Shown: in pieces, positions 11,913-28,597 of the stretch
How positions within the stretch are numbered: the stretch's first letter is position 1
Layout of the letters: every line of letters begins with the position of its first letter
Assembly (NCBI RefSeq): GCF_900182705.1
Contig: NZ_FXTP01000001.1
Location: 62,001 to 126,000 of the forward strand
Direction of reading: 5' to 3'
Source: Gracilimonas mengyeensis
GTDB lineage: Bacteria; Bacteroidota; Rhodothermia; Balneolales; Balneolaceae
Length of the DNA stretch: 64,000 bases
Position numbers and translations under genes: made by a program
The notes under the pieces: generated by a model
The model's database searches: none
What the model saw: only the letters and a program-made list of their open reading frames with translations
Told to the model about the DNA's origin: nothing

Positions 11913-12770
11913 TTATTTCAAGATAGAATCACAAATGTAATCCGGGATAATGCCCGAAGAATTAATCCAGAGCTCAGCATTGTCGCTGCGGGTGTTACCT
12001 GAAAGCACCAGCATGGTTTTCAGGCCAAATTTGTTCCCGCCCAGAATATCGGTACTCAGTGTATCGCCCACCATCAAAATATCGTCTTTATCATACTGCT
12101 GTTTGTCCCGATTGATGTGCTCGTAGGCATAGTTAAACATCTGGGTATCGGGCTTCCCAAAGTGGATGAACTTTTTGCTCAGCATGCTTTCACAAAGCTT
12201 GGCAATACCACCGGTTGCCACCGATACATCATTTTTGTTCACGGGATAATATTTATCCGAATTGGCTACAATCACCGGTACCGTCTTGCGGCGCAGAAAA
12301 TTTACCGTGGTGTCGATATCGTAGTTCCAGTCAAAGCCCTCATCATCTAAAAAAACGAAGGCACTGATATCTTCAATGTTTTCAAGATCGATATCGCGCA
12401 CGGCAATGTGTTTGAGGCCGGATTGGAGGATATAATCCGCGGAGTTCTCGGTACCCAGGTAGGCAATTTTTCCATCTTTAATTTTATGCGATAAAAATTG
12501 CTTGGCCAACATCCCGGAAGTGATGACTTCTTCCACATCGAGATCCTTGAGTCCAAGCCGGTCAAATACCTCCACCTGCTGTTCCTGGCTTCGTGAGGCA
12601 TCATTGGTAAGTACCCGAAATACGATGCCTTCACCCCGCAAAAAAGAGATGGTCTCAGCTACGCCATCAATCAGGCCTTTGTGGTTTTTAAGTACTCCGT
12701 AAGAATCCAGGAATACTACTTTGAAATTTTTAGCAACAGAACGAAATGAGTCGATGCGTGAGGAGATCAT
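11913..12770 (-). CDS. HAD-superfamily class IIA phosphatase (NagD-like)
   Basis: A 285-residue HAD hydrolase of the NagD/PGP type with a class IIA cap. Motif I is FLDSYGVL (nucleophile D22), motif II LTNDAS, motif III the Lys of IHFGKPDTQMF, and motif IV MVGDTLSTDILGG. Motif I has Tyr24 where most phosphatases have the second Asp (DxD), the residue that usually acts as acid/base; class IIA subfamilies with DxW or DxY are known, so catalysis is still likely but may be altered. Its ATG lies 1 bp after the stop of the kinase gene, so the two are almost certainly co-translated. The substrate is probably a small phosphorylated metabolite made by that kinase. Confidence 0.85.
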   Translation of the reverse strand: MISSRIDSFRSVAKNFKVVFLDSYGVLKNHKGLIDGVAETISFLRGEGIVFRVLTNDASRSQEQQVEVFDRLGLKDLDVEEVITSGMLAKQFLSHKIKDGKIAYLGTENSADYILQSGLKHIAVRDIDLENIEDISAFVFLDDEGFDWNYDIDTTVNFLRRKTVPVIVANSDKYYPVNKNDVSVATGGIAKLCESMLSKKFIHFGKPDTQMFNYAYEHINRDKQQYDKDDILMVGDTLSTDILGGNKFGLKTMLVLSGNTRSDNAELWINSSGIIPDYICDSILK

Positions 12771-12771
12771 G

Positions 12772-13815
12772 TTAGAGATTTAAAGCTTTTAAAAGGGGTT
12801 CAGGGTCAAATTTTTCATCCAGTTCGGGGAGGTACCGGTCAAAAGCCTCTTTCTGAAGTTTGGTGGCAAACAGCTCGTGAAAGAAGTACTTGCCGTATTT
12901 AACTACGTAATTCAGAATAAAAAAGCGATAGGCTTCTTTCAAAAAACGAATTTCATTTTCGGTAAGGGGATATTCTTTGTGATAGGCTTTCAGAAAAACA
13001 ATGAAACGGTCTTCCATCACTGGGTCGATGTCGTAAGAGAATACGGTTCGATCACCAACATTTGAGGATATACGAGCAAAAAAGTAAAAGTCGATAATGC
13101 GTGAACTCATCCGGAACCAGTCATAATCCCAGCGGGAGAACAGTTTTAGCTGCGGAGTCACTGAGAAGTTGCCAATATTCCAGTCCACAAATACCGGGAT
13201 GGTATCCATGTCATCTGCTCCCAGTTTCTCCATGTTTTCAAAAAAGAGATCACTGTGCTTTTTGATGAGATCTTGATGCAAGCGGTACTCATGTTTACCA
13301 TAATCCGTTTCCATAATCTCCAGCAGGTGTTCGATATCAACCTGTAGGGTTTTGGAGGAGGCAGGAAGGGTATTCCGGATAGTGTTGCAGGATTTATGAA
13401 AACGGGCAAATTCCTTTGCCAGTTTTTGAATTTGTTCTTCATCGAGGCGCTTGGGAAGCTTGCGCTTAATTTTGATCGGTCGATAAAACACTACCCAGGC
13501 GTCAATCACTTCATCGGTATGGCGATGAACAAACAGAGAATTCTCTTTAACCAGCGAACGGGCTAGAAAATTTTCAAACGGATCGGGGAGATTGTTTGAC
13601 AGAGAATTAATAATGGTATGATCTTCAACAAAGTGTTCAAACTTTCCGAAATAGGACAGCTTGGCTATGATGATATTTCCATCCTTAAACGTGACACGAT
13701 ACACGTGATTGGTAGAAACCTTGGCACTAATATCGGTAATGGTGATGATGGTCCGGGTAGGATCGTAGGCCTGCCAGGCTTCTTTCACAATCTCATTAAA
13801 ATCAATAAAAGACAT
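12772..13815 (-). CDS. APH/choline-kinase-like small-molecule kinase
   Basis: A 347-residue protein kinase-like fold of the aminoglycoside phosphotransferase / choline kinase group. The ATP-binding Lys is probably K52 (IIIAKLSYF). The catalytic loop reads FVDWNIGNF, with D211 and N216 in the place of HGDxHxxN, and the metal-binding motif is RWDYDW (D230/D232). Such enzymes phosphorylate hydroxyls of amino-alcohols or amino-sugars; a resistance role is unlikely because the gene is locked into a three-gene unit with a glutamine-synthetase-like ligase (19 bp upstream) and a HAD phosphatase (1 bp downstream). The ligand cannot be named from the sequence. Confidence 0.8.
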   Translation of the reverse strand: MSFIDFNEIVKEAWQAYDPTRTIITITDISAKVSTNHVYRVTFKDGNIIIAKLSYFGKFEHFVEDHTIINSLSNNLPDPFENFLARSLVKENSLFVHRHTDEVIDAWVVFYRPIKIKRKLPKRLDEEQIQKLAKEFARFHKSCNTIRNTLPASSKTLQVDIEHLLEIMETDYGKHEYRLHQDLIKKHSDLFFENMEKLGADDMDTIPVFVDWNIGNFSVTPQLKLFSRWDYDWFRMSSRIIDFYFFARISSNVGDRTVFSYDIDPVMEDRFIVFLKAYHKEYPLTENEIRFLKEAYRFFILNYVVKYGKYFFHELFATKLQKEAFDRYLPELDEKFDPEPLLKALNL

Positions 13816-13834
13816 AAAGTTAGGTAGGTGTTGA

Positions 13835-15214
13835 TTAGATTATTTCAAAATAGCGATTTAATTCCCAGTCGGTAACGGCTTTTTGATACTGCCGCAACTC
13901 CCATTCCCTGGTTTTGGCTAAGTGTCGGGTGAATTCCTCCCCGAAAAGTTCAGCTGCGATATCCGAACTTTTCATGAGCTGGATGGCTTCATCCAGGCTT
14001 CTAGGCAGGGGACGGTTGATTCCATTGTCGTATTCATTGCCTGTTGTTTTTTCTGTATCCAGGGATAGCTGATGTTTGATGCCATACAAACCGGATGCAA
14101 GGCTGGCTGCCATGCTCAGGTAGGGATTGGCATCTGCTCCAGGCACGCGGGTTTCAAGCCGCATGGATTCTTCTCCGTGATTGATGACTCTAAGGGCTGT
14201 TGTTCTGTTTTCAATACCCCAGCTGGCAGAGGTAGCTGCCCAGGAACCCGGTACCAGTCGTTTATAGCTGTTAATGACAGGAGCGTACATCGGCATGATG
14301 TGAGGCATACAGTGCAGTTGACCTGCTATATACTGCTCCAATAATTCACTAATCTGATCTGAATTCTTATCCTCAAAAAATAGATTCTTATCAGCGTTTT
14401 CATCCCACAAGCTTTGATGAATGTGTCCGCTGCAACCGGGAAGTTGTTCATTCCATTTGGCCATAAAGCTGGGAATGATCTGGTGCCGGCTGGCAATTTC
14501 CTTAACACCGGTTTTAAATAATACGGCGCGATCTGCTGCTTCCAGAATATCGGAGTAAGTAATGGCTGCTTCATATACGGCATCTCCGGTTTCGGTGTGA
14601 AGACCTTCCAAAGGCACCTCAAACCTTTCAAGCAAGTCGAAGAGGTCATTGAAGTAGTCACTGTTTTGGGAAGCCCTCAGAATGGAATAGCCAAACATGC
14701 CAGGCGTCAAAGGCTGTGGCGATTTGTATTGCTTCTCCTTCAGGCTATCCGGTGTCTCCCTGAAATTAAACCACTCGAATTCATTAGAGAAAAGAGGGGT
14801 GTATCCCATATCCAGGCTTTGCTGGCGTATGGTTTTCAGCAGTGTTCGCGGACAAACTTTGCCGGCATCTTCGGATAGATGAAAATCGGCAAGGAAAAAG
14901 GGGATGTCATTTTCCCAAGGAATTCGCCGAAGCGTACCAAGGTCGATGGTAGCCATTGAATCAGGAAAGCCCGTATGCCAGCCTGTGACGTCATTTTCGT
15001 CATACACGGCATCATTTATATCCCAACCAAATATGACATTGCAAAAGCCAAGATTGCCCTCGGCAGCTTTAGAAAATTTTTTGAATGAGATTATTTTCCC
15101 CCTTAAAACTCCATCAATATCCGTGACGGCCAGTTTAATCTTTTTGGGGGCTGAAGCTTTTAACTGTTCCAGAACCTCTTTTTTTTGTTCCATTATGGTA
15201 GCATAAGTGTGCAA
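13835..15214 (-). CDS. Glutamine-synthetase-like gamma-glutamyl amine ligase
   Basis: A 459-residue GS type I fold protein, distinct from the housekeeping GlnII at 19058. Metal and substrate motifs are visible: FSNEFEWFNF (E145, E147), HTETGDAVYEAAI (E208), GCSGHIHQSL and NRTTALRV. The adenylylation-loop Tyr region of regulated GlnA is not recognisable. GS-like enzymes of this class (PuuA, GlnA3-type) join glutamate to amines such as putrescine or ethanolamine. The two downstream genes encode a small-molecule kinase and a phosphatase, so the ligase probably works on an amino-alcohol or polyamine. M1 (15214) or M8 could be the start; the first is used here. Confidence 0.85.
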   Translation of the reverse strand: MHTYATIMEQKKEVLEQLKASAPKKIKLAVTDIDGVLRGKIISFKKFSKAAEGNLGFCNVIFGWDINDAVYDENDVTGWHTGFPDSMATIDLGTLRRIPWENDIPFFLADFHLSEDAGKVCPRTLLKTIRQQSLDMGYTPLFSNEFEWFNFRETPDSLKEKQYKSPQPLTPGMFGYSILRASQNSDYFNDLFDLLERFEVPLEGLHTETGDAVYEAAITYSDILEAADRAVLFKTGVKEIASRHQIIPSFMAKWNEQLPGCSGHIHQSLWDENADKNLFFEDKNSDQISELLEQYIAGQLHCMPHIMPMYAPVINSYKRLVPGSWAATSASWGIENRTTALRVINHGEESMRLETRVPGADANPYLSMAASLASGLYGIKHQLSLDTEKTTGNEYDNGINRPLPRSLDEAIQLMKSSDIAAELFGEEFTRHLAKTREWELRQYQKAVTDWELNRYFEII

Positions 15215-19057: not shown

Positions 19058-20068
19058 ATGGCTTATTCTAAACTCGAGTATATATGGCTTGATGGTTTTA
19101 AACCAACCCAACTATTAAGAAGTAAAACTAAAGTTGTTCACGATTTCAGTGGCAATCTGGAAGATTGTCCAATGTGGAACTTTGATGGTAGTTCAACAGA
19201 TCAGGCTACCGGAGATTCTTCTGATTGTTTGTTAAAACCAGTAGCTATTTTCCCTGATCCAGATCGCAAAAATGGCTATTTAGTTATGACCGAAGTTCTG
19301 AATGCTGATGGCACACCGCACGAGACCAACGGTCGTGCAGCTATTGATGATGATAGCGATGACTTCTGGTTCGGATTTGAGCAAGAATATTTTCTGCATG
19401 ATCCTGAAACGGGACGACCTCTTGGCTTTCCTGTAAATGGCTATCCTGCACCTCAAGGCCCTTACTATTGCAGCGTAGGCGGACAAAGAGCATACGGACG
19501 TGAAATTATCGACGAGCATTTAGACTTATGCCTGGAAGCTGGCCTCAATGTAGAAGGAATTAACGCAGAGGTAGCCGCAGGACAATGGGAATTCCAGATT
19601 TTTGCCAAAGGTGCACACAGTGCCGGCGATCAGATTTGGGTAGCCCGTTACCTTATTGAAAGAACTGCTGAGAAATATGGATTGGCTATCGACTGGCATC
19701 CAAAACCACTGGGAGACACTGACTGGAATGGTTCTGGTATGCATGCCAACTTCTCTAACGGTAAGATGAGAGACGAAGGCGGCGAAGACTACATGAAAGA
19801 AGTTTGTGAAGCTTTTGGAAACTTCATTCAGGAACACATCGATGTGTACGGTGCGGATAACGATCAGCGATTGACTGGTAAGCACGAAACACAATCGATA
19901 GACAAATTCAGCTATGGTGTTTCTGATCGCGGTGCTTCCATCCGTATTCCTGTAACTACTGTTGAAGATGGCTGGGTAGGACGCCTCGAAGATCGTCGCC
20001 CTGCATCCAACGCAGATCCATATAAAGTTGCCGGACGAATTATTAAGACTGTTAATTCAGTTTCCTAA
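19058..20068 (+). CDS. glnII: Glutamine synthetase type II
   Basis: A 336-residue enzyme that makes glutamine from glutamate and ammonia. It is of the eukaryote-like GSII class: WNFDGSST (40-47) at the beta-grasp domain, FGFEQEYFL (E108, E110), NAEVAAGQWEFQI, WNGSGMHANFS, GKHETQSIDKFSYGV and the C-terminal RRPASNADPY. GSII is decameric and not adenylylated. It is probably the main ammonia-assimilating GS here, because the GS-like protein at 13835 looks like an amine ligase. A strong terminator follows. The upstream 280 bp are A+T rich and hold the promoter, but no box stands out. Confidence 0.96.
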   Translation: MAYSKLEYIWLDGFKPTQLLRSKTKVVHDFSGNLEDCPMWNFDGSSTDQATGDSSDCLLKPVAIFPDPDRKNGYLVMTEVLNADGTPHETNGRAAIDDDSDDFWFGFEQEYFLHDPETGRPLGFPVNGYPAPQGPYYCSVGGQRAYGREIIDEHLDLCLEAGLNVEGINAEVAAGQWEFQIFAKGAHSAGDQIWVARYLIERTAEKYGLAIDWHPKPLGDTDWNGSGMHANFSNGKMRDEGGEDYMKEVCEAFGNFIQEHIDVYGADNDQRLTGKHETQSIDKFSYGVSDRGASIRIPVTTVEDGWVGRLEDRRPASNADPYKVAGRIIKTVNSVS

Positions 20069-23358: not shown

Positions 23359-25341
23359 TTAGTATCTAATAAGCCTTTCTATTTTTTCGGATAGCTTCCT
23401 ATCGGCCATAAAACCGGCTTCCAATCCCTTGTCATGGGGGATAGGCATATCAAGAGAAGCGCAGCGCATTACGGGGGCATCCAGCCATTCAAAGCATTCT
23501 TCGGAGATAATGGCTGATATTTCGCTAAGCGGACCTAAAGTTAATGATGGCTCCTGAAGCAGTAACACGCGACCTGTTTTTTGGACGGTGGCTTTGATGG
23601 CTTCCTTATCGAGGGGAAGAAGGGTACGAAGGTCCAGAATTTCAATGGACCTTCCTTTTGATTCAAAAGCTCCGGCGGTTTCCAAAGCCCACTGCACGCC
23701 CATACCGTAGGTGATAATAGTGGCATCTGTTCCTTCCCGCCGTACTTTGGCTTTACCCAGTGGCTCAAAGTTAGCTTTGTCGGGGATTTTCGCTCTAAGA
23801 CTTCGATAGAGTTTTTTATGCTCGAAAAAGAGCACGGGGTTGGGATCATAAAGCGAGCCATAAAGTAGATTCATGGCATCTTCAACGGTTCCTGGTACTA
23901 CAACTTTCAAGCCCGGAACCTGCATAAACCAGCCTTCCACAGATTGTGAATGGAAAGGTCCGGCCCCTACACCACCGCCGTGTGGTGCGCGGATGGTGAT
24001 ATTTAATGACGGAGACCAGCGATACTGAGACTTAGCAATGTTGTTTACAATCTGATTGAATCCACAGGAAATAAAATCCGCAAATTGCATCTCAACCACC
24101 GGTTTAAAGCCTTCGAGCGACAGTCCTAAGGCGGCACCCAAAGCTCCGGATTCAATGATGGGCGTATTGCGAATGCGTTCTTTCCCGAACTGATCCAGAA
24201 ATCCTTCCGTAATCTTGAATACACCACCATATTCGGCGATATCCTGCCCCATGATCAGAAATGAGCTGTCTTCTTCAAAAGCTTGTCTCAGGGAAGCCTG
24301 AATAGCATCTACAAAGCGGTGTTCATAGGTCACTCCATCTTTATGAGCTGGAATTTCTTTTGAGGTAGGAGTATAGACCCGGGCCAGTTCTTTAGATTCT
24401 TCAAACACAGGATCATCAGCATCCAAGGCTTTTTCGAGATCTTGCTTGAAAGACTGATCAATTTCTTTGGTTACTTCTTCAAGCTCAGCCTGGGTAAATA
24501 ATCCTTCTGATTCGATGTAAAGCTCAAATCGGTGGATAGGATCCTTTTCAGCCCAATCTTCAAATAAGTTATCCGGTACATAATGGGTTCCTGAGGCTTC
24601 CTCATGACCGCGCATCCGAAAGGTTTTAGCTTCAATCAGCACCGGTTCGCCTTTTAAGGCAAGCTCCCGTGCCTGTCCAACGGTTTTCATAACCTCAAAA
24701 ATGTTATTTCCGTCAATATGGAATCCGTGCATTCCATAACCTTTGGCACGATCGGAAAGGTGCTCGCAGGCATATTGCTCGGAGGTAGGGGTGGAGAGCC
24801 CATAGCCGTTATTTTCAATAATAAACACCACCGGAAGCTTCCAAACTGCGGCCAGGTTTAACGCTTCGTGGAAATCTCCTTCGCTGGTGGCACCATCTCC
24901 ACAAAATGAAAAAGCCACAGCCTTCTCCTCGCGCAACTTCATAGCCAAAGCGAGCCCGTCTGCTACCGGCATCATAGCGGCAAGATGGGAGATCATCCCA
25001 ATGATTTTATGTTCCGGGATGCCAAAGTGGAAAGAACGATCCCGACCCTGGGTAAAACCGTCGGCTTTACCAAATAACTGGCAAAAAAGAGGGTATAGGG
25101 GCACATTTCGCGCCGTAAAAACTCCCAGGTTACGATGCATGGGCAGAATGTAATCTTCCGGCTCGGAGGAAAGCGCCACGCCAACTCCTACGGCTTCCTG
25201 ACCTATCCCTGAAAACCATTTGCTGATTTTATTTTGACGGAGCAACATCAACATACGTTCCTCAATTCTTCTTGGAAGCAGAAGATTTTTATAGAGGTAA
25301 AGCGCCGTTTCTGCAGATATCTTTTTCTCGGTGATGGCCAC
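23359..25341 (-). CDS. Fused 2-oxoacid dehydrogenase E1 alpha/beta
   Basis: A 660-residue thiamine-diphosphate enzyme with both E1 halves in one chain. The alpha half (1-~320) contains the TPP motif GDG (148-150) ... ENNGYG (176-181). The beta half (~335-660) contains MGQDIAEYGGVF, ESGALGAALGLSLEG, APHGGGVGAGPFHSQS and the C-terminal transketolase domain. Such fusions in Bacteroidota work on branched-chain 2-oxoacids or pyruvate; the acceptor E2 and E3 are elsewhere. It is the last gene of a run with the polyamine genes (25 bp after the DHS homologue), an unusual neighbour for it. Confidence 0.93.
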   Translation of the reverse strand: MAITEKKISAETALYLYKNLLLPRRIEERMLMLLRQNKISKWFSGIGQEAVGVGVALSSEPEDYILPMHRNLGVFTARNVPLYPLFCQLFGKADGFTQGRDRSFHFGIPEHKIIGMISHLAAMMPVADGLALAMKLREEKAVAFSFCGDGATSEGDFHEALNLAAVWKLPVVFIIENNGYGLSTPTSEQYACEHLSDRAKGYGMHGFHIDGNNIFEVMKTVGQARELALKGEPVLIEAKTFRMRGHEEASGTHYVPDNLFEDWAEKDPIHRFELYIESEGLFTQAELEEVTKEIDQSFKQDLEKALDADDPVFEESKELARVYTPTSKEIPAHKDGVTYEHRFVDAIQASLRQAFEEDSSFLIMGQDIAEYGGVFKITEGFLDQFGKERIRNTPIIESGALGAALGLSLEGFKPVVEMQFADFISCGFNQIVNNIAKSQYRWSPSLNITIRAPHGGGVGAGPFHSQSVEGWFMQVPGLKVVVPGTVEDAMNLLYGSLYDPNPVLFFEHKKLYRSLRAKIPDKANFEPLGKAKVRREGTDATIITYGMGVQWALETAGAFESKGRSIEILDLRTLLPLDKEAIKATVQKTGRVLLLQEPSLTLGPLSEISAIISEECFEWLDAPVMRCASLDMPIPHDKGLEAGFMADRKLSEKIERLIRY

Positions 25342-25366: not shown

Positions 25367-26341
25367 TTACCAGCCCAACAGATACGCAAAAATTAGCGGA
25401 GCTACAATAGTTGCATCCGATTCTATGATAAATTTAGGAGTATCGATGCCAAGTTTTCCCCAGGTGATTTTCTCATTGGGTACGGCACCGGAGTAAGAGC
25501 CGTAGCTGGTGGTGGAATCACTGATTTGGCAGAAATAAGACCAAAGGGGGGTATCGGTCATCCCGAGATCCTGCTCCATCATCGGCACCACACAAATAGG
25601 AAAATCACCGGCAATACCTCCACCAATCTGGAAAAAGCCAACGCCGTTTTGAGAGTTGTTTTTGTACCAATCGGCCAGAAACATCATGTATTCAATCCCG
25701 GATTTTACAGCTGAAGGTTGTGTCTGTCCTTGTATACAATGTGAGGCAAAGAAATTACCACAGGTTGAATCTTCCCAACCCGGTACAATAATGGGAATGT
25801 TCTTTTCAGCAGCGGCAAGCAACCAGGAATCTTTAGGATCTATTTGATAGTCATCTTCCAAATCACTACTTAAGAGCAGATCATAAAAGTATTCATGGGG
25901 AAAATGTCGTTCGCCTTTTTCTGTAGCTTTGACCCAACGTTTCACCAGGTGATCTTCAATCCGCCGCATGGCTTCTTCTTCAGGGATGCAGGTATCGGTT
26001 ACACGATTAAAATGCTGATCGAGCAGTTCCTGCTCGTCCTCAGGACTCAAATCTCGATAGTTAGGAATGCGTTTGTAATAATCATGCGCTACCAGGTTAA
26101 ACACATCTTCCTCCAGGTTGGCTCCGGTGCAGGTGATAATGTGCACCTTATCCTGCCGAATCATTTCGGCCAGCGACAATCCCAGCTCACCCGAGCTCAT
26201 GGCCCCGGCCAGGGTAATCATCATCTTGGCGCCCGAATTTAGTTGATCTTCATACGCTTTGGCAGCATCCACCAGGGAGGCTGCATTGAAATGACGAAAA
26301 TGATGGGTGATAAAATCAGAAACAGGTCCTTTGTTACTCAT
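25367..26341 (-). CDS. Deoxyhypusine synthase homologue
   Basis: A 324-residue NAD-dependent protein of the deoxyhypusine synthase fold. Core motifs are MITLAGAMSSGELG, CTGANLEED, VPGWEDST, FFQIGGGIAGDFPI and the catalytic-lysine line ITWGKLGID, with K296 at the position of the human active-site K329. Bacteria lack eIF5A, so these homologues are thought to transfer an aminobutyl group between small polyamines (homospermidine or spermidine formation). Context agrees: it overlaps the agmatinase gene by 4 bp and is preceded by arginine decarboxylase, which together supply putrescine. Confidence 0.9.
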   Translation of the reverse strand: MSNKGPVSDFITHHFRHFNAASLVDAAKAYEDQLNSGAKMMITLAGAMSSGELGLSLAEMIRQDKVHIITCTGANLEEDVFNLVAHDYYKRIPNYRDLSPEDEQELLDQHFNRVTDTCIPEEEAMRRIEDHLVKRWVKATEKGERHFPHEYFYDLLLSSDLEDDYQIDPKDSWLLAAAEKNIPIIVPGWEDSTCGNFFASHCIQGQTQPSAVKSGIEYMMFLADWYKNNSQNGVGFFQIGGGIAGDFPICVVPMMEQDLGMTDTPLWSYFCQISDSTTSYGSYSGAVPNEKITWGKLGIDTPKFIIESDATIVAPLIFAYLLGW

Positions 26342-27198
26342 GAATTCGCAAATTTATAGCTTAGCATTTTATAGTAGAGTTTAGCAGCCAAAAACTGGGG
26401 AGCGCTTAGTCCCTCGATGGGAGCCAGTTCAACGATGTCAAAGCCCAGTACATTTTTTTGTTGAAATACTTTTTTGAGGTACCGGGTAACAGTGTACCAA
26501 TCCATTCCACCCGGTTCCGGAGTTCCGGTGGCCGGCATGATGGAGGGATCAAACACGTCCAGGTCTACAGTGATGTACACTTTGTCACTTATCTTAGAAA
26601 GGGAGTCTTCCATCCAGTCGGTTTTGCCATGGATGTCTTCGGCAAAATAGCATTTATCACGATCCAGAAATTCAAGTTCGCTGCTGTCCATGCTGCGGAT
26701 GCCTACTTGCACAAGGTTGGCGTTTTGAGAGGCATCATATACCGCACAGGCGTGATTGTAGGGGGAACCGTGGTACTCGGGACGTAGATCGGTATGTGCA
26801 TCCAGCTGCAGAATGGTGATATCAGGGTGTGCCTCGTAAAACGCTTTAATGATACCAATGCTGATGGAATGTTCACCTCCAAAGAAGGTGAGAAATTTAT
26901 CTGTTTTCAATAATTCCCGGGTATTTTCATATACAGACTCGAAAACAGCTTCCGGGGAAACTTCTTCCAGGATGGGATCTACAATATGAACTCCTTTTTG
27001 ATAAACTTCACTATCGGTTTCGATATCGTAGATTTCCATATTTTCAGCCGCATCCAGGAAAGCTTCAAAGCCTTGATCTGCGCCTTTGCCCCAGGTGCTG
27101 GTGCCGTCGTAGGAGATAGATTGCAGGAGCACATTGGCATTTTTAAACTGATTGTGATCGCCTTCAATGCCGGCAAAAATTGGGTTGGGTTTAGTCAT
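26338..27198 (-). CDS. speB: Agmatinase-type ureohydrolase
   Basis: A 286-residue binuclear manganese enzyme. Metal ligands appear in FFGGEHS (H110), LDAHTDLRP (133-137) and TVDLDVFDPSIMPATGTPEPGG near residue 210. It should hydrolyse agmatine to putrescine and urea. Guanidinobutyrase or arginase are alternatives, but its 8-bp overlap with the arginine decarboxylase gene and 4-bp overlap with the DHS homologue favour agmatine. Confidence 0.92.
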   Translation of the reverse strand: MTKPNPIFAGIEGDHNQFKNANVLLQSISYDGTSTWGKGADQGFEAFLDAAENMEIYDIETDSEVYQKGVHIVDPILEEVSPEAVFESVYENTRELLKTDKFLTFFGGEHSISIGIIKAFYEAHPDITILQLDAHTDLRPEYHGSPYNHACAVYDASQNANLVQVGIRSMDSSELEFLDRDKCYFAEDIHGKTDWMEDSLSKISDKVYITVDLDVFDPSIMPATGTPEPGGMDWYTVTRYLKKVFQQKNVLGFDIVELAPIEGLSAPQFLAAKLYYKMLSYKFANS

Positions 27199-28597
27199 TG
27201 TATCCTAAAATATTTAACATGTTGTCGACGGTCTGTTCTTCGCGATATACAAAATCGAACAAGTTGCCATCTTCGTCTTTATCTACCACAATGTGTTTTG
27301 GAGAAGGGATGAGGCAGTGCTTGATGCCGCCGTATCCGCTTATGGAATCCTGATACGCCCCGGTGTGGAAAAAGCCAATATAGAGAGGTTCCTCATCAGT
27401 ATCTTCATAAACAGGCAATAGAACTTGCTGGTTCAGTTCCTCTGAGTTGTAGTAATCTGAGTGATCGCAGCTGATGCCGCCAATATTGACCCTCTTGTAC
27501 TGATTTTGCCATTTATTGAGCGGCAGAAGGATGAATTTCTCGTTGATGGACCATGCATCAGGGATGGTGTTCATAAGGCTGTTGTCTACCAGGTACCAAA
27601 GCTCTGTATCGTTTTGCTGCTTTTGCTCCAGCACTTGAAAAATAACGGCCCCGCTTTCACCCACCGTGTATTTACCAAATTCGGTGTAGATATCAGGTTC
27701 TTCTACATTGGCATCTGTACAGGCCTCTTTAATGTTGCTTACAATTTCATTGGTGATGTACTCATAATCAAAATCAAAATTGAGGCTGTTCTGTATAGGA
27801 AAACCGCCGCCAATATTCAGGGATTTTACAGAAGGAGCGATTTTCTTGATGTTGGTGAATTGCGAGAGCGCTTTCTTAAATTCATTCCAGTAGTACATGG
27901 TATCGCGTACACCGGAGTCCACAAAAAAGTGGACCATGACCAATTCTACTTTGTCATTGCCGATAATTCTTTCCTGAACAAAATCTAGTATCTCGCGCTT
28001 GTTAATTCCCAGCCTAGAGGTGTAATAAGCCGCCTGAGGATCTTCTTCAATAGAGATACGCAAGCCAATTTTTATGGGCTCATCCGTTTCAAGTTCTTCC
28101 AGCTTATCCAGCTCCCTTGCATTATCCAATACACAAATCGAATTTTTAAATCCCTGCTTAACCAACCGGCCAATTTTTTTGATGTAGTCATCGGTTTTGT
28201 AGCCGTTATGTACAATGGTTTTATCTTGATTAAACACGCCCTTATTGTACAGGTTTTCAATCAGGTCGATATCAAAAGAAGAGGAAGTTTCCAGCGATAC
28301 ATGTTCTTTCAAAGCAGTGCGCACCACATGATTAAAGTGACAGCATTTGGTGCAGTAGCAAAACTCATAGTTCCCTGAATAATTATTTTTAGCAATGGCC
28401 TGGCTAAAATAGGTCCTCGATTTCTGAATTTTCTCTCTGATTTTTGGAAGGTAAGAAAGCTTAAAAGGAGTCCCGTGTTTTTTAATCAGCTGCTGTAGGT
28501 CTACTTGATTAAAATTCAGGGTACCGTTGACCAATTCAAATCCATTTTGTGGAAAATCATAACTCTGGTCAATAAGTTCGTAATAGTTGTTCTTCAT
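27191..28597 (-). CDS. speA: Arginine decarboxylase, short Bacteroidota type
   Basis: A 468-residue PLP enzyme of the alanine-racemase-fold decarboxylases. The PLP lysine is probably K84 in the unusual Cys-rich strand FCYCTKCCHF, where most relatives have YAxKAN. The phosphate-binding LNIGGGFP and the acidic EFGKYTVGESG (PLP pyridine nitrogen contact) follow, with the C-terminal ISCDHSDYYNS as the second active-site loop. It lacks the inserted domains of E. coli SpeA (about 650 residues), as is normal for this branch. First gene of the polyamine unit; product is agmatine. Confidence 0.88.
   Translation of the reverse strand: MKNNYYELIDQSYDFPQNGFELVNGTLNFNQVDLQQLIKKHGTPFKLSYLPKIREKIQKSRTYFSQAIAKNNYSGNYEFCYCTKCCHFNHVVRTALKEHVSLETSSSFDIDLIENLYNKGVFNQDKTIVHNGYKTDDYIKKIGRLVKQGFKNSICVLDNARELDKLEELETDEPIKIGLRISIEEDPQAAYYTSRLGINKREILDFVQERIIGNDKVELVMVHFFVDSGVRDTMYYWNEFKKALSQFTNIKKIAPSVKSLNIGGGFPIQNSLNFDFDYEYITNEIVSNIKEACTDANVEEPDIYTEFGKYTVGESGAVIFQVLEQKQQNDTELWYLVDNSLMNTIPDAWSINEKFILLPLNKWQNQYKRVNIGGISCDHSDYYNSEELNQQVLLPVYEDTDEEPLYIGFFHTGAYQDSISGYGGIKHCLIPSPKHIVVDKDEDGNLFDFVYREEQTVDNMLNILGYND

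Follow-up and report, generated by a model that had tools for sequence, protein, structure and literature searches.

The DNA studied here, referred to as the window, is a stretch of 64,000 nucleotides from Gracilimonas mengyeensis (contig NZ_FXTP01000001.1, positions 62,001 to 126,000), and our subject is a unit of three genes within it, which encode a ligase resembling glutamine synthetase, a kinase with the APH fold and a HAD-IIA family protein. In the list of open reading frames (ORFs) of the window, the three ORFs lie co-directionally on the minus strand between 11913 and 15214 and are separated by gaps of 19 and 1 bp, just as an earlier note made from the sequence had described. The first gene, for a predicted gamma-glutamylamine/amino-alcohol ligase of family PF00120, occupies 13835 to 15193 and encodes 452 amino acids from an ATG, while its ORF opens with a TTG at 15214 (459 amino acids). 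Since most relatives align from residue 6-13 only and two proteins of the same genus have 452 amino acids, translation probably begins inside this ORF, at the ATG at 15193. The gene for the APH-fold kinase, which is of an unclassified family, occupies 12772 to 13815 (347 amino acids, ATG), and the HAD-IIA gene, recognized by TIGR01460, occupies 11913 to 12770 (285 amino acids, ATG).

The ligase scored 302 bits against PF00120 in the Pfam scan. It remained under the cut-offs of all four NCBIfam equivalogs that it matched, which represent glutamine synthetases and gamma-glutamylputrescine synthetase: 196.3 bits against a cut-off of 429.15 for the GlnA equivalog, 205.4 against 469.6 for type III glutamine synthetase and 181.8 against 650 for gamma-glutamylputrescine synthetase. 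Conserved residues were read from an alignment of 61 ligases (the window and 60 others, with the gene of genome G139 counted twice, as L014 and L115); sequences with less than 90% query coverage, with an internal stop or identical to another were left out of this alignment and of that of the HAD proteins. E145, E147, E208, E215, H264, R319, E354 and R356 were invariant in 61/61 sequences, and they align with metal, glutamate and nucleotide residues of glutamine synthetase, their roles being assigned by this alignment. The Glu of the 'E327 flap', which handles ammonium, is replaced. Its place is taken by W325 (459-residue numbering; codon at 14240 to 14242, minus strand), which aligns with the PGYEAP Glu of two solved glutamine synthetases, 8s59 and 8tfb, and is Trp in 60 sequences and Phe in one. 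At the position equivalent to Tyr179, the same alignment shows Met in 50 of the 61. At the place of D50 the loop is rebuilt and the alignment ambiguous; a pairwise alignment sets Asp72 opposite, and this position is Asp in 41/61. According to the available text of two reports (PMC5403932, PMC6529630), PauA7, GlnA3 and GlnA4 carry Trp or Phe at the E327 place, and their acidic ammonium residues are not conserved. A whole-genome profile search found PF00120 twice, in the trio ligase and in a GSII gene outside the unit (19058 to 20068, plus strand, 3.8 kb off), which is the cell's own glutamine synthetase, with no third match. The retained catalytic residues, the Trp at the E327 place and the separate GSII support the view that the trio ligase is of the gamma-glutamylamine type and not the cell's glutamine synthetase, and they bear out the amine gamma-glutamylating type proposed in the earlier note.

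The kinase had no match at E 0.01 against Pfam or at E 0.1 against NCBIfam, and the same scans with 45 kinase sequences returned scattered weak matches only, PF01636 being touched by one of the 45 (E 0.055). Searches of solved structures with phmmer and with a profile gave chance matches only. Membership of the homoserine-kinase family was considered and rejected, as the weak model matches in 14/45 sequences (best E 0.0014) were no better than adjacent spurious ones. The AlphaFold model of the kinase was confident, with a predicted local distance difference test (pLDDT) score of 90.6, and structure comparison matched it to the amicoumacin kinase 6sum (Z 20.4, root-mean-square deviation 3.7, 311 residues aligned), YihE 1zyl (Z 20.2), N-acetylhexosamine 1-kinase (20.0), homoserine kinase (19.8), the aminopropanol kinase 6ef6 (19.4) and the choline kinase LicA 4r78 (18.3). 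Since the top Z scores are tied, the fold names no substrate. The kinase shares with the APH/choline-kinase fold enzymes the overall fold (Z 18-20) and an invariant set of Lys, Asp, Asn and Asp residues, with K52, D211, N216, D230 and D232 conserved in all 45 sequences. It differs from them in its low sequence identity (only 11-14% in these comparisons), in the lack of any sequence-profile match among solved structures, and in its catalytic loop. The catalytic motif of APH kinases is HGDxxxxN, whereas the trio kinase has FVD in place of HGD, so the His is missing; the loop motif D211-W-N-I-G-N216 (13168 to 13185, minus strand) is invariant in the 45 sequences. By its modelled structure, then, the kinase is of the APH fold and belongs to a family without a Pfam match; the label 'APH-like' given earlier stands by fold, at Z of about 20, but not by Pfam or NCBIfam sequence match.

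The HAD protein passed the subfamily model TIGR01460 (134.6 bits, cut-off 100.15), and its nearest solved structure was 2hx1 (E 6.9e-94), a close relative deposited as a predicted sugar phosphatase. Motifs II-IV were kept in 91/91 sequences (T55, K206, D236 and D241), as in the HAD-IIA phosphatases chronophin and NagD, and the nucleophile D22 was likewise present in 91/91. In ordinary HAD phosphatases, an Asp at the +2 position serves as the general acid/base. Unlike in those enzymes, the +2 residue of motif I (D22-S-Y24-G, 12696 to 12707, minus strand) was aromatic, with 61 of the 91 sequences carrying Tyr there, 30 carrying Phe and none Asp, so that the DxD pattern is lost; 2hx1 also has Phe there. 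For this reason the name 'HAD phosphatase' used in the earlier note is unsafe: HAD-IIA membership and motifs II-IV agree with it, but ordinary phosphatase activity is in doubt. A precedent for an altered +2 residue is LHPP, which has Ser at this position and, in the available part of the report, acts on phospholysine, phosphohistidine and pyrophosphate (PMC11277029).

Neighborhoods were compared in the best 80 of 350 kinase loci from named genomes, with up to 8 kb on each side, and neighbors were labelled by eye in the 76 loci of at least 6 kb. A HAD gene lay close by on the kinase strand in 80/80 loci, with about 0.9 kb between the two in L055 and L098. In a first sample of 198 genomes, drawn at phylum level, the kinase was present in 27 and the HAD in the same 27. 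The pairing in 80/80 loci is more than chance. The ligase adjoined the kinase in 33 of the 80, always on the same strand, and several of the loci were too short to show it. Hence the co-conservation of the trio, which the earlier note had suggested checking, was borne out in part: the kinase and HAD were inseparable, but the ligase was adjacent in 33/80 only, and one of two ligase types was still encoded elsewhere in most genomes tested. All three genes were jointly absent from five members of the window's own family. A second sample took 199 genomes from a different family, with three kinase genomes in common with the first, and contained the kinase in 41 genomes of 24 genera. In the class of genome G190 it was found in 2 of 149 genomes, both known before, so the pair is sparsely spread there. 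A search of plasmids for the kinase gave nothing at E 1e-3. The kinase tree placed the Balneolota in one clade (100/99) among Bacteroidota rows. Two kinase loci were labelled as lying outside Bacteroidota, L101 (a Rickettsiales metagenome-assembled genome, MAG) and L104 (a Gemmatimonadetes MAG); the bin label of L101 is probably wrong, because its gene order and closely related kinase match Marinoscillum.

The kinase was also coupled to a ligase across whole genomes. With ligase presence counted at E 1e-40 or better, a ligase was found in 27/27 kinase genomes of the first sample compared to 11/171 genomes without the kinase, and in 36/41 compared to 13/158 in the second, all counts being uncorrected for kinship. 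Five of the 11 kinase-free genomes of the first sample reached 142-180 bits only and may hold other glutamine synthetases, and the five kinase genomes of the second sample in which no ligase was found (G444, G445, G474, G479 and G489) are each 80-90% complete. Two ligase types accounted for these matches. In the first sample, 22 kinase genomes carried a close ligase (at least 53% identity), which in 21 of these genomes shared the strand of the kinase and lay no more than 0.7 kb from it, and the remaining five carried a 32-35% identical ligase elsewhere. In the second, 23 of the 36 ligase-bearing kinase genomes had the distant type and 13 the close one, which adjoined the kinase in 9. Three of these matches were fragmentary or split: G400 (a fragment, 53% identity) and G373 (two pieces) were counted as close, and G417 (a fragment, 41% identity) as distant. 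The two types, the distant one having 32-36% identity, were never found together, in 0/63 rows from 60 distinct kinase genomes at E 1e-40. They replaced one another within genera: in genus g8 the trio ligase occurred in G108 and the distant type in G119 and G171, and in genus g265, G407 had the distant and G496 the trio type. The kinase implies the ligase but not the reverse, suggesting that the kinase acts on the product of the ligase.

What this product might be was suggested by the neighbors of ligases that are not linked to a kinase. In four genomes without the kinase (G091, G033, G150 and G162), a ligase 57-59% identical to the trio ligase lies in an operon of permease, ligase, Fe alcohol dehydrogenase, gamma-glutamyl hydrolase-like protein and aldehyde dehydrogenase. 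Two of these permeases were tested and scored 436.7 and 448.5 bits, over the curated cut-off for ethanolamine permease of 381.75. The unlinked ligases examined were hand-picked and not a random draw; among the close ones, in genomes with or without the kinase, 12/13 adjoined an ethanolamine-type permease, as did the ligase in 10 of the 12 kinase-free ligase genomes examined. Among the unlinked ligases of kinase genomes (20 of 31 examined), 14 adjoined the permease and 2 more adjoined dehydrogenases and an amidotransferase. The operon of the distant type comprises ligase, short-chain dehydrogenase/reductase, aldehyde dehydrogenase, amidotransferase and permease; a figure legend of PMC6529630 lists the same gene content for the glnA4 cluster of Streptomyces. 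In the ligase tree, ligases of ethanolamine-type operons nested among trio ligases, at a fork with moderate support (82/85). Plasmids carried relatives with 39-47% identity in seven regions, one of them unannotated; in the six annotated regions an aldehyde dehydrogenase was near in five and a class-I amidotransferase or gamma-glutamyl hydrolase in four. That two ligase types replace each other and share ethanolamine-type operons suggests a gamma-glutamyl amino alcohol as the product. As to the earlier idea of an amino-alcohol or polyamine pathway, the operons of the relatives favor the amino-alcohol half, and the polyamine half found no counterpart in the 80 kinase loci.

A route by which ethanolamine is used after gamma-glutamylation is known from Streptomyces coelicolor (PMC6529630, PMC9397018; consulted in part). 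The trio resembles the GlnA4 pathway of that organism in having a glutamine synthetase-like ligase without the E327 Glu, and its close unlinked relatives are mostly in operons with ethanolamine permease, dehydrogenases and amidotransferase. It differs in that Trp stands here and Phe there at the E327 place, and in that no oxidation genes adjoin the trio, which instead has a kinase and a HAD protein, neither of them mentioned in the available text of PMC6529630. The same text describes the Streptomyces permease as unlike EutH and Eat. The gamma-glutamylpolyamine and monoamine synthetases GlnA3 and PauA7 share the Trp at the E327 place, as far as the available part of PMC5403932 goes, whereas no polyamine genes are linked to the 80 kinase loci. 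No description of the trio or of the kinase-HAD pair was found in the literature searched, at title and abstract level and with most subscription journals outside its scope.

Taken together, we tentatively propose, with confidence slightly short of even, that the unit is an amino-alcohol gamma-glutamylation module, in which the kinase-HAD pair would be accessory to gamma-glutamylethanolamide-type metabolism. In the step supported by homology, the ligase would spend ATP on linking the amine of a small amino alcohol, most likely ethanolamine, to the gamma-carboxyl of glutamate. The APH-fold kinase would then phosphorylate a free hydroxyl, most likely that of the gamma-glutamyl product, since the kinase is almost confined to genomes with such a ligase. 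In the last and least certain step, weakened by motif I of the HAD protein, the HAD would act on the phosphorylated compound, by hydrolysis or by another cleavage given its unusual active site. A more specific version, in which a new kinase family and a HAD with an aromatic +2 residue and other than ordinary ester phosphatase chemistry make and process an undescribed metabolite, a phosphorylated gamma-glutamyl amino alcohol such as gamma-glutamyl-phosphoethanolamine, seems to us rather unlikely as it stands; if true, it would add a new branch to the ethanolamine nitrogen metabolism of Bacteroidota and Balneolota. In these phyla, such ligases are tied to a HAD with an altered active site and to a kinase family that Pfam does not match; the tie suggests a phosphorylated intermediate and gives two uncharacterized families a concrete, cheaply testable substrate class. 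The coupling of kinase and HAD to the ligases thus points to a phosphorylation step not described before in the metabolism of amino alcohols.

Several observations weigh against this proposal. None of the 80 kinase loci showed the permease, the Fe alcohol dehydrogenase, the aldehyde dehydrogenase or the hydrolase of the ethanolamine operon nearby, and for that reason the link to ethanolamine is drawn from relatives and from co-occurrence. The co-occurrence counts ignore kinship, and 11 and 13 genomes of the two samples have a ligase and no kinase, so the ligase does not need the kinase. Four of the 20 unlinked ligases of kinase genomes had no ethanolamine-type neighbors, and two of the six annotated plasmid relatives were near genes annotated as spermidine/putrescine ATP-binding cassette (ABC) transporters. 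The HAD lacks the usual +2 acid/base residue. The window's polyamine decarboxylase, taken as a control, was enriched with the kinase in the first sample (15/27 compared to 43/171; odds ratio 3.7, p 0.0025), which may be an effect of kinship.

The operon of ethanolamine permease, dehydrogenases and amidotransferase was not found in the window. In the genome as a whole, the best match to the ethanolamine permease model reached 141.1 bits, under the cut-off of 381.75, and the best match to the amidotransferase of the distant-type operon was 29% identical (37.4 bits). A dedicated gamma-glutamyl hydrolase was sought and the candidate rejected, as the best Peptidase_C26 match overlaps an apparent amidoligase gene. 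Since neither a permease above the cut-off nor a close gamma-glutamyl hydrolase was found in the genome, the substrate may, speculatively, be internal ethanolamine, for example from lipid head groups.

Another explanation is lipid head-group salvage and release, in which the kinase and HAD would turn free ethanolamine into phosphoethanolamine and back, with the ligase as a competing nitrogen-assimilating outlet for the same pool. The choline kinase LicA and the aminopropanol kinase 6ef6 are among the fold matches, and an ethanolamine permease is linked to the ligase family; yet salvage needs no ligase, which leaves the near-confinement of the kinase to ligase genomes (27/27; 36/41) unexplained, and an ordinary HAD-type phosphoethanolamine phosphatase would be expected to keep the +2 Asp, which is gone. 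We consider this explanation unlikely, but not negligible. The protein kinase YihE, among the top fold matches at Z 20.2, raises instead the prospect of a regulatory pair, a protein kinase and an opposing HAD that act on the ligase or on glutamine synthetases and tune nitrogen flow. GSII was near the kinase in 16/80 loci (10 in Balneolaceae and 6 in Chitinophagaceae), and GSIII-like genes (6) and ammonium-transporter-like genes (5) were labelled in the 76 loci. However, the adjoining synthetase varies and most kinase loci have none, and the interchange of two distant ligase types (32-36% identity) fits a common metabolite better than a common protein surface, which makes regulation distinctly improbable. 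Only a slim chance is given to the ligase being an independent amine scavenger that lies beside the kinase by accident, with an unrelated role for the kinase and HAD. Adjacency in 33/80 loci only (some being too short) and relatives that stand alone or in other operons would fit such independence, but the coupling holds genome-wide even where the genes are unlinked, and the trio is jointly absent from five members of the window's family.

That the ligase is a plain glutamine synthetase, or that the unit serves polyamine metabolism, appears very improbable. The PF00120 match and the Trp shared with gamma-glutamylpolyamine ligases are compatible with it, as are the two plasmid relatives near spermidine/putrescine transporters, the polyamine-type genes about 10 kb off and the decarboxylase enrichment in one sample. 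Against it stand the separate GSII, scores far under the cut-offs for glutamine synthetases and the putrescine ligase, and the absence of polyamine genes near the kinase in all 80 loci. In the second sample the decarboxylase was equally common in genomes with the kinase (33/41) and without (127/158; odds ratio 1.0, p 1.0). A polyamine role is thus disfavored by neighborhood and by second-sample co-occurrence, the first sample showing enrichment. The polyamine operon that the earlier note placed 8 kb from the trio is also farther away. At about 8 kb lies an ORF (23359 to 25341) that by eye looks like a 2-oxoacid dehydrogenase E1, and the nearest polyamine-type gene starts at 25367, about 10 kb off, where deoxyhypusine-synthase-like, agmatinase-like and pyridoxal phosphate (PLP) decarboxylase-like genes, all labelled by eye, stand in a row (25367-28597). 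Matches elsewhere to the decarboxylase (27191-28597) included many full-length ones with exactly one stop (TAA, TAG or TGA); their open frames are at least as long as the match, and the stop may sit at its very end.

In the genome's contig C3, an amidoligase-like gene, which we take to be a probable amidoligase, overlaps a class-I amidotransferase gene (L155:6234-8028). The two form a second, apparently unrelated candidate ligase-hydrolase pair.

Upstream of the trio in the window are menE-, menC- and menA-like genes on the same strand, followed by GSII on the plus strand at 19058. In the relatives L031, L032, L035 and L163, menE-menC-menA is divergent from GSII-(ligase)-kinase-HAD. Compared to these loci, the trio of the window stands on the opposite side, behind menE; the rearrangement is local, and the same neighbors were kept.

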